From positions 1 through 31,314 of the IMG/VR virus record IMGVR_UViG_3300007538_000106: DNA of 31,314 nucleotides. One strand, 5' to 3'. Origin of the DNA: a virus. A program made the translations under genes and the position numbers. Under the pieces are notes generated by a model. The model was given only the letters and a program-made list of their open reading frames with translations. It was not told the origin of the DNA and searched no databases. This document shows positions 1,419-3,907 of the stretch, in pieces. How positions within the stretch are numbered: position 1 is the first letter of the stretch; every line of letters begins with the position of its first letter.

Positions 1419-1426
1419 TATATTTG
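1419..1426 (+). promoter_or_regulatory. Bacteroidota-type promoter -7 box (TATATTTG)
   Basis: TATATTTG matches the TAnnTTTG -7 consensus of the primary sigma factor in Bacteroidota. A T-rich stretch (GTTTTATTT, 1398-1406) sits about 21 bases upstream in place of a clear TTTG. Transcription would begin near 1432-1434, exactly at the start of the structured leader that follows, and would serve the replication genes from 1520 on. Confidence 0.5.
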
Positions 1427-1432
1427 TAGAAT

Positions 1433-1511
1433 GTGAGTAGTAGCACAGTTAACTAATTTTTACAAAGCCTCTTTTGATTCAGTCTACTACCTGATGATAA
1501 AGGGGTTTTTT
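1433..1511 (+). ncRNA. Candidate structured leader or small RNA (attenuator or pseudoknot)
   Basis: Two pairs of complementary segments interleave. GTAGTAG (1437-1443) is the exact complement of CTACTAC (1484-1490). CCTCTTT (1468-1474) pairs with AAAGGGG (1499-1505) with one G-U pair. The order A-B-A'-B' makes either a pseudoknot or two competing folds. A further TCAG/CTGA helix (1479-1482 with 1491-1494) places CTACTAC exactly in the hairpin loop. Six T follow the second helix. With a promoter box just upstream, this could be an attenuator for the initiator gene or a short terminated RNA. Seen: the pairings. Inferred: transcription and function. Confidence 0.5.
1467..1511 (+). terminator. 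Rho-independent-like terminator upstream of the initiator gene
   Basis: A hairpin with lower helix CCTCTTT/AAAGGGG and upper helix TCAG/CTGA, separated by a small internal loop, with an 8-base loop TCTACTAC and a run of six T at 1506-1511. It would end or attenuate transcription entering from the genes at 112-1418 or from the promoter at 1419, nine bases before the next start codon. Confidence 0.55.
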
Positions 1512-1519
1512 ATTACCAA

Positions 1520-2167
1520 ATGAAACCAACAAAAAGAAAAGCTTTTAATTTTCTACGGAGTTACTTTGACGTGTTAAATGAGCTGAAAGACAAAGATGAT
1601 AAACTTAATTTTTTACTTTCAATAATAAATAAACAATTTTTAGACGAAGATCCAAAAGACTTGAATTTTATAGTAAATCTATGTTATGAAAGTCAAAGGC
1701 ATTCAATAGAAAGTAGTGTAAAAGGTTGGAAACGTGCAAGTAAAACTGATTTAATAGGGAACAATCTATACACCCCCCCGACCCCCAAGGGGTTAGACCC
1801 CCCGACCCCCAAGCAGGAAGAAGAAGAGAAAGATAAAGAAGAAGAGAAAGAGAAACAAGTTATATATACAGAAAATGATTTTTTAAAACGTTGGAAAGAT
1901 GCAAGATTGTACTATGATAAAAAACCAACTAATATAACTAAATTGATTCAATCTGAAAAAGTTAATTTTAATTATATTGTAAAAAATTATACACCTAAAC
2001 AAATAGATGAAGCAATATCTGGATTGTTTTTTCAAGATACTTATAAAAGCACAAGATTAAGACCAACACACTTTCTGGAGTTAGAACACTTTGAAAAATA
2101 TTTAACGTGTTTTGAAACAAAAGAAAAACTGTTTACTAATAATATTAAAAAAGTTGAGAGATTATGA
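1520..2167 (+). CDS. Replisome organiser-like protein (DUF6291-like N-terminus)
   Basis: The first 60 residues (AFNFLRSYFDVLNELKDKDD and the helix after it) resemble the N-terminal domain I know as DUF6291, found in phage replication-initiation proteins of the DnaD/replisome-organiser kind. Residues about 85-112 are a low-complexity linker: a duplicated TPPTPK stretch, then a run of Glu and Lys. The C-terminal half (ENDFLKRWKDARL to the end) is helical. It is followed with a 4-base overlap by an unknown gene and then by a RecA-fold ATPase, the usual order initiator then helicase or loader. The linker is encoded by a strikingly GC-rich DNA repeat. Initiator function is inferred. Confidence 0.6.
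   Translation: MKPTKRKAFNFLRSYFDVLNELKDKDDKLNFLLSIINKQFLDEDPKDLNFIVNLCYESQRHSIESSVKGWKRASKTDLIGNNLYTPPTPKGLDPPTPKQEEEEKDKEEEKEKQVIYTENDFLKRWKDARLYYDKKPTNITKLIQSEKVNFNYIVKNYTPKQIDEAISGLFFQDTYKSTRLRPTHFLELEHFEKYLTCFETKEKLFTNNIKKVERL
1774..1813. repeat. GC-rich direct repeat with potential G-quadruplex on the minus strand
   Basis: The 16-base unit CCCCCCGACCCCCAAG occurs at 1774-1789 and again at 1798-1813, spaced 24 bases apart, inside the initiator-like gene. On the minus strand this gives four runs of five or more G within about 40 bases. It stands out sharply from the AT-rich surroundings. It encodes a Pro-rich linker, so the coding constraint there is weak. It may be part of a replication origin or a captured short host-type repeat; both are inferences. 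Confidence 0.7.
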
Positions 2168-3472: not shown

Positions 3473-3504
3473 GTTTTTTTATTCAAAATAAATAAGTATA
3501 TTTG
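3473..3504 (+). promoter_or_regulatory. Promoter upstream of the DnaA-like gene
   Basis: TATATTTG at 3497-3504 matches the TAnnTTTG -7 element. The box GTTTTTTTATTCAA at 3473-3486 lies with its G exactly 24 bases upstream of the -7 box. The same 14-base box with the same 24-base spacing precedes the ERF gene (28827-28858), which supports a shared phage promoter type. The start codon follows at 3521. Confidence 0.6.
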
Positions 3505-3520
3505 ATAAACATTAAAAATT

Positions 3521-3907
3521 ATGGAAGAAAAAATAACATTAGAACTGGTAAAAAAAGATATTGAGAGATATTTTAATATTGAAGATATTGGAATTAAAAG
3601 CAGAGAAAGAAATTTAGTAATGTACCGTAGATTATACTATACTATAAGTAGAAAATATACTTCAGAAAGTTTAGCAAATATAGGCATAAATGTAAATAGA
3701 GATCATTCAAGCGTTATAAATGGCTTAAATAAGTATAATGAATTAATTTTATATTTTAATAATGTTTCAGATTGTTATAAATTATTAAAAGAAAAATATA
3801 ATAGCATTAAATTAAAACATAATAAAATTGATATTGAAATTCGCTTTTGTGATCTTTTAAATAATAAGATTTTAACCAGAAAACAAATTGAATTACAGTT
3901 AAATTAA
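3521..3907 (+). CDS. Free-standing DnaA domain IV-like DNA-binding protein
   Basis: Residues about 30-75 match the C-terminal DNA-binding domain of DnaA: RNLVMYRRLYYTISRKYTSESLANIG followed by the signature NRDHSSVINGL (about 59-69), which corresponds to the DnaA box-recognition motif with RDHS. There is no AAA+ ATPase domain, only a short helical N-terminus and about 50 extra residues after the domain. DnaA domain IV binds DnaA boxes at origins, so this protein may bind the phage origin, compete with host DnaA, or act as a regulator. It has its own promoter and is followed 11 bases later by another gene. Confidence 0.75.
   Translation: MEEKITLELVKKDIERYFNIEDIGIKSRERNLVMYRRLYYTISRKYTSESLANIGINVNRDHSSVINGLNKYNELILYFNNVSDCYKLLKEKYNSIKLKHNKIDIEIRFCDLLNNKILTRKQIELQLN

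Follow-up and report, generated by a model that had tools for sequence, protein, structure and literature searches.

The window analysed here, the whole 31,314 nt stretch of DNA (positions 1–31,314 of IMG/VR virus record IMGVR_UViG_3300007538_000106), carries a gene for a replication-initiator-like protein, preceded on the same strand by a promoter box and, between box and gene, by two hairpins with complementary loops (Table 1). The start codon lies 9 nt after the T-run that ends the second hairpin. The first-pass annotation had called this gene an initiator, and the assignment is favoured by a position shared with the replication genes of isolated phages and by iteron-like repeats; the protein is accordingly taken as a probable replication initiator. 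Members of the 215-aa family have CGACTAACCCC-like iterons and a purine-rich stretch within the gene. In the window and in relatives, the iteron-like repeats (GACTAACCCC / GACCCCC) are followed by purine-rich DNA, and this segment is a possible candidate for a replication origin inside the initiator gene, by analogy with lambda O, where the origin lies inside the initiator gene. Elsewhere in the window, 3521–3907 encodes a small protein carrying the C-terminal DNA-binding domain of DnaA (PF08299, E 1.4e-11), which has its own TATATTTG box near 3497.

Table 1. Predicted features of the leader and the gene that follows it, in positions of the window.
Feature	Position	Strand	Basis or remark
Promoter box TATATTTG, Bacteroidetes-type (TAnnTTTG)	1419–1426	+	Sequence; similar box in relatives
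Hairpin H1: TGTG 1432–1435, loop AGTAGTAG 1436–1443, CACA 1444–1447	1432–1447	+	Parsed in sequence-divergent relatives; compensatory changes
Kissing segment A, GTAGTAG, in H1 loop	1437–1443	+	Exact complement of 1484–1490
A/U-rich linker GTTAACTAATTTTTAC	1448–1463	+	
Intrinsic-terminator hairpin H2 with T-run	1464–1511	+	Sequence, fold, parsed relatives, compensatory changes
H2 outer stem AAAGCCTCTTT/AAAGGGGTTTT	1464–1474/1499–1509	+	11-bp terminator stem
H2 internal loop UGAU/UGAU	1475–1478/1495–1498	+	
H2 inner stem TCAG/CTGA	1479–1482/1491–1494	+	
Kissing segment A', CTACTAC, in H2 apical loop	1484–1490	+	Complementarity, parsed relatives, covariation
T-run of six T	1506–1511	+	
Replication-initiator-like protein gene, 215 aa	1520–2167	+	Iteron-like repeats inside; same position as isolates' replication genes
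Iteron-like repeat ACCCCCCCGACCCCCAAG / ACCCCCCGACCCCCAAG, then purine-rich stretch, inside initiator gene	1769–1812	+	Sequence; CGACTAACCCC repeats in relatives

The interval 1432–1511 is a predicted intramolecular kissing-loop complex, set between the promoter box and the initiator gene. The coordinates of the promoter box, both 7-nt partners, the terminator arms, the T-run and the ATG at 1520 are correct; every element that the first-pass annotation named is there, and the interleaved A-B-A'-B' order of pairing that it described is borne out by the sequence. Its 7-bp pair stands, as does its suggestion that the 5′ part of the RNA contacts the terminator loop. The open pseudoknot does not: the flanking TGTG/CACA and TCAG/CTGA helices, which it had missed, place both partners in 8-nt hairpin loops (the tip of H2 reads TCAG(TCTACTAC)CTGA), making this a loop–loop kissing contact. 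The complementary stretch also matches the loop sizes (7/7/7 nt in locus L002, 6/6/6 in L018 and 8/8/7 in the window), the fit that a kissing complex requires.

Taken alone, the fold of this sequence is not significant (z-score −1.26, with 21/200 shuffles folding as well), and GTAGTAG occurs five times in the window against about two expected; the case therefore rests on comparison. Relatives were fetched by means of the downstream protein only, without use of the RNA sequence. A search with this protein gave 22 viral loci, all 22 of which showed the same layout just upstream with different letters in the loops (examples are GCGTAGGA/TCCTACGC, GCGTCCGA/TCGGACGC, ATTGCAG/CTGCAAT and CCACCAC/GTGGTGG), and a profile search gave 56 loci. 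An automatic descriptor found the element upstream of the initiator gene in 33/45 distinct initiator loci, compared with 1/42 on the reverse strand and 0/42 in the downstream segment. The element is present in 36/44 evaluable initiator loci, with four further loci carrying a variant; the 36 comprise the 33 automatic detections, the window (where the script had mislocated the gene) and two loci read by eye (L050 and L069), and L038, whose upstream sequence is too short, is left out of the 44. No recognisable element was seen in the related phages L042, L051, L052 and L071. When a promoter was required, 57 matches scoring ≥50 were obtained on the gene strand and none on the opposite strand in 0.58 Mb, although the 57 are not independent, as loci overlap and some are counted more than once. 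Loci chosen by terminase gave 12 matches scoring ≥55, against none on the opposite strand.

All helices covary. In an alignment of 13 sequences the paired fraction was 95% for H1, 98% for the inner and 91% for the outer stem of H2, and 95% for the kissing helix, with compensatory changes at 3/5, 4/4, 7/11 and 7/8 pairs, respectively. Sliding the partners by one base halved the pairing, and 0/500 shuffles did as well on the main measures. Across 41 parsed RNAs, the match between the H1 region and the H2 loop averaged 7.6 nt for a locus's own partners and 4.4 nt for swapped partners; this set was partly selected for pairing, and the counts given earlier, from loci chosen by protein, provide the cleaner test. 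The first-pass annotation had proposed covariation as a check on its two pairs, and conservation of the pairing is thereby established. That an ordinary promoter and terminator have complementary words nearby by chance, a reading that the weak single-sequence z-score would allow, is refuted by the covariation and the strand controls and retains a negligible probability. The structure is almost certainly a genuine conserved RNA.

Architecture is conserved to a greater extent than sequence. A TAnnTTTG-like box stands mostly 4–6 nt 5′ of H1 across the relatives, and the linker is 11–20 nt in most of them, with an A-rich part first and a U-rich part after; its length bears no useful relation to stack length, since linker bases are taken up into the foot of the terminator stem. 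A model of the long-loop subtype (R1) recovered its own subtype and several others, not the window, so that the element is not one sequence family. The same element occurs in isolated phages of Flavobacterium, Cellulophaga, Polaribacter and Olleya, which were reached through terminase and then through DUF6291. No match was obtained with the DNA of the region in phage records, with the exact terminator-loop word in viral contigs, with the initiator N-terminus by tblastn in isolate phages, or with the initiator profile in genome contigs. Flavobacterium prophages with a related terminase gave no convincing element, and R1 run against the whole genomes of their hosts gave weak matches only (best E 0.012). 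The element is absent from Bacteroides LoVEphage, a faecal phage, the first 50 kb of crAss-like phi38:1, and P12024S.

Rfam returned no match at gathering in the window or in 14 loci, and none that was sensible at E≤5 in 1380–1560; the C4 covariance model in particular was matched neither at gathering nor up to E=5 in that interval. A riboswitch was rejected on the lack of an Rfam match and on the divergence of loop, stem and linker sequences, which leaves no conserved core. A plasmid antisense copy-control RNA was likewise rejected, both loops lying in one sense-strand element and the opposite strand giving no promoter-led matches at the same score. By these tests the element is a family of structured RNAs without an entry in Rfam 15, and it is not C4, plasmid antisense or riboswitch, in keeping with the earlier opinion that no described family fits. 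Nor did the literature, in which subscription papers were thinly covered, yield a description of such an element. The family is present in most of the flavobacterial phages examined that have these initiator genes, some of them cultured phages of Flavobacterium and Cellulophaga; little is known of how such phages regulate their replication genes.

The position of the element between promoter and start codon is fixed. From the end of the T-run to the next start codon is 6–48 nt, mostly 11–24, in nearly all members and whatever the gene, and hence whichever gene follows must have the element as its leader; in the window the gap is 9 nt, too short for a second promoter, and transcription of the initiator message must therefore run through the element. 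The gene that follows varies, and may be the initiator itself, a small conserved gene before the initiator, or an endonuclease of NUMOD4-HNH, HNH or GIY-YIG type. Among isolates, non-homologous replication genes follow the element in 11b, phi10:1, P12002L, phi13:2, phi19:3, elemoA/B/C, tooticki, lillamy, hattifnatt and Harreka; the gene is DUF6291 in 11b, of primosomal type in phi10:1 and lambda O-like in P12002L (phrog_678, E 1e-37). The first-pass annotation had seen neither the two additional stems nor how many phages carry the element, nor its association with homing endonucleases, nor a variant whose terminator loop also pairs with the start codon region (see below).

Promoter, intrinsic terminator and start codon thus follow one another in order on one strand, as in an attenuator leader, and a terminator so placed would be expected to attenuate the gene, as the first-pass annotation had suggested. 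The favoured reading (probability roughly 0.55) is that the leader terminates most transcripts and throttles the downstream gene through termination. Transcription would start a few bases before H1, which would fold first; the emerging H2 loop would then kiss the H1 loop, and H2 would close as an intrinsic terminator a few nt before the initiator start codon. Most transcripts would end there and be released as a compact sRNA of ~90 nt that begins in H1, finishes in H2 and keeps both loops hidden. The initiator gene would be carried by read-through transcripts alone, so that the element would limit initiator synthesis and, if the origin lies inside the initiator gene, transcription through the origin as well. 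Termination, an effect of the kissing contact upon it, and feedback in trans by the released RNA are what we infer from this layout. A classical antiterminator is not indicated, since, apart from the H1–H2 loop contact, pairing of upstream segments with the terminator arms did not exceed chance (z −0.7 for the 5′ arm of H2 and 1.1 for the 3′ arm); as the kissing contact and the terminator can also coexist, the element is not a classical switch, and the switch that the first-pass annotation offered as one of two options is not supported. The copy-number control and the free small RNA suggested there are putative. The loops appear to be meant for each other, given that the rest of the phage genomes shows no excess of kissing words (26 second targets seen, 22.6 expected). 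It counts against the termination reading that a terminator needs no kissing partner, which leaves the selective value of the contact unexplained, and so do the start-codon variant described below and the few related phages without a recognisable element.

The features that a terminator does not need could instead be recognised by something else. Tandem GA recurs in the internal loop of H2, being present on both sides in 22/54 cases against 3.4 expected, and neither this loop nor the A/U-rich linker is required for termination; a protein of phage or host, or else a ligand, might therefore recognise the kissing fold, the G.A internal loop or the linker and so free the operon at a defined point in infection. 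Unlike aptamers, the element has few invariant bases outside the promoter and terminator across relatives, and together with the absence of an Rfam riboswitch match this makes control by a protein or ligand doubtful.

A further reading places the effect of the element in cis and mainly on translation or mRNA stability, with H2 hiding the ribosome site and the kissing fold protecting the 5′ end. The closeness of H2 to the start codons is consistent with this, as is a variant in four loci (L012, L048, L049 and L056), where about 7–14 nt of the H2 loop also match the initiator start codon region by complementarity and where H1 resembles that region (for example GCGAAACGTTATGGAA / TTCCATAATGTTTCGC / GCGAAACATTATGGC in L012, 3861–4010). 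A weak case is L018, whose H2 loop is the complement of AGTGCAGT, immediately 5′ of the ATG. In the four variant loci the pairing points to a putative translational control as well. As a general rule, however, start-codon pairing was rejected: such a loop segment is lacking in the window and in most members, own matches (4.41 nt) barely differing from cross-locus ones (4.32 nt). The U-run, too, shows the conservation of a terminator. A primary role in translation or stability is thus rather improbable. In Polaribacter phage P12002L (L079, 27905–28036), a hairpin before an HNH endonuclease gene has the loop GCGTTTA, which matches two copies of AAACGC just upstream of the start codon, and may be a simpler relative of the variant.

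The kissing segments and the inner stem have diverged further than the other parts of the element. Identity was 0.53 in the kissing segments and 0.42 in the inner stem, against about 0.65 for the H1 stem, terminator stem and linker, although this comparison between parts rests on short segments; the kissing sequence was shared by only 2/205 related pairs. L013 and L014 have identical H1 stems and wholly different loops, and phages with several copies of the element use a different kissing pair for each. Such divergence would fit phage-specific labels and would also be compatible with weak constraint on sequence. The former underlies a possible, though unlikely, reading in which the element serves as a self-sensing RNA for dosage control or immunity: once released, the sRNA would use its loops to act in trans within the same phage, either on the nascent leader or on the initiator mRNA, and replication would slow as copies rise. 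On that reading the H2 loop of the variant, with H1 and the start codon region as its two partners, would resemble P4 seqB pairing with seqA and seqC. Against it, the loops sequester each other in the finished RNA, a second target is lacking in the window and most relatives, and near-identical phages keep identical loops. We can only tentatively suggest, then, an undescribed class of self-sensing phage RNAs, in which a terminator-tipped leader has its own antisense partner in the preceding hairpin, and released copies, with loops as phage-specific labels, tune in trans the termination ahead of initiator and homing-endonuclease genes. Were this true, such RNAs would set the copy number of a phage and might also make coinfecting phages incompatible.

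Several known systems share parts of this logic. The P4 CI and P1/P7 c4 antisense RNAs (Rfam C4) are short RNAs from a phage operon leader, with one segment complementary to a second leader segment and to a third near the regulated gene (seqA/seqB/seqC in P4). The variant loci have a comparable three-segment arrangement, whereas most members have no third segment and the partners here are two hairpin loops, one of them in a terminator; the C4 model, moreover, is not matched. ColE1 RNAI/RNAII and R1 CopA/CopT are copy-control kissing RNAs which resemble the element in their 6–8-nt loop–loop contacts, divergent loops and place beside a replication initiator or primer, yet they are pairs of transcripts from opposite strands, and both loops here lie in one sense-strand RNA. 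HK022 put RNA, which suppresses downstream terminators, likewise opens an early phage transcript with two hairpins, while the second hairpin here is itself the terminator. A multimer like phi29 pRNA, built through intermolecular H1–H2 contacts, could be imagined, since the loops would pair between molecules too and structure is kept without sequence conservation; it is very improbable, phi29 pRNA being encoded with and needed for the packaging motor, and the element standing at the replication gene and before homing endonucleases rather than at packaging genes. The nearest published logic is that of IsrK from the Salmonella prophage Gifsy-1, where one promoter gives a short sRNA with an intrinsic terminator and a read-through mRNA of the same operon, and where an sRNA segment is complementary to the downstream message, long pairing with orf45 being needed (PMC4825925). 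IsrK is also a precedent for a phage sRNA whose target is its own read-through product (PMC4825925). Promoter, terminator-ended sRNA and read-through mRNA are alike in the two, with complementarity to the message confined here to the variant subgroup; unlike in the present element, a kissing contact with the terminator loop within one molecule has not been described for IsrK, whose hosts differ and whose operon is not that of a replication initiator.

Loops that are bound to match each other and are otherwise free to change amount to a natural set of kissing pairs, and swapping them could test the effect of the kissing contact on intrinsic termination. Additional copies of the element stand before NUMOD4/HNH-type endonuclease genes in L028 (3342), L038 (2763), L030 (3429), L045 (766), L057 (4358), L190 (7233) and L210 (about 597). 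The kissing pair GTCGTCG/CGACGAC is common to tooticki6-1 (L210) and the L190 phage, in both cases before endonuclease genes, as if RNA and endonuclease might travel together. In one subtype, seen in L028 and L034, the linker contains an additional small hairpin (TTAGTC/GACTAA, GCTAA/TTAGC), which likewise varies with compensation.
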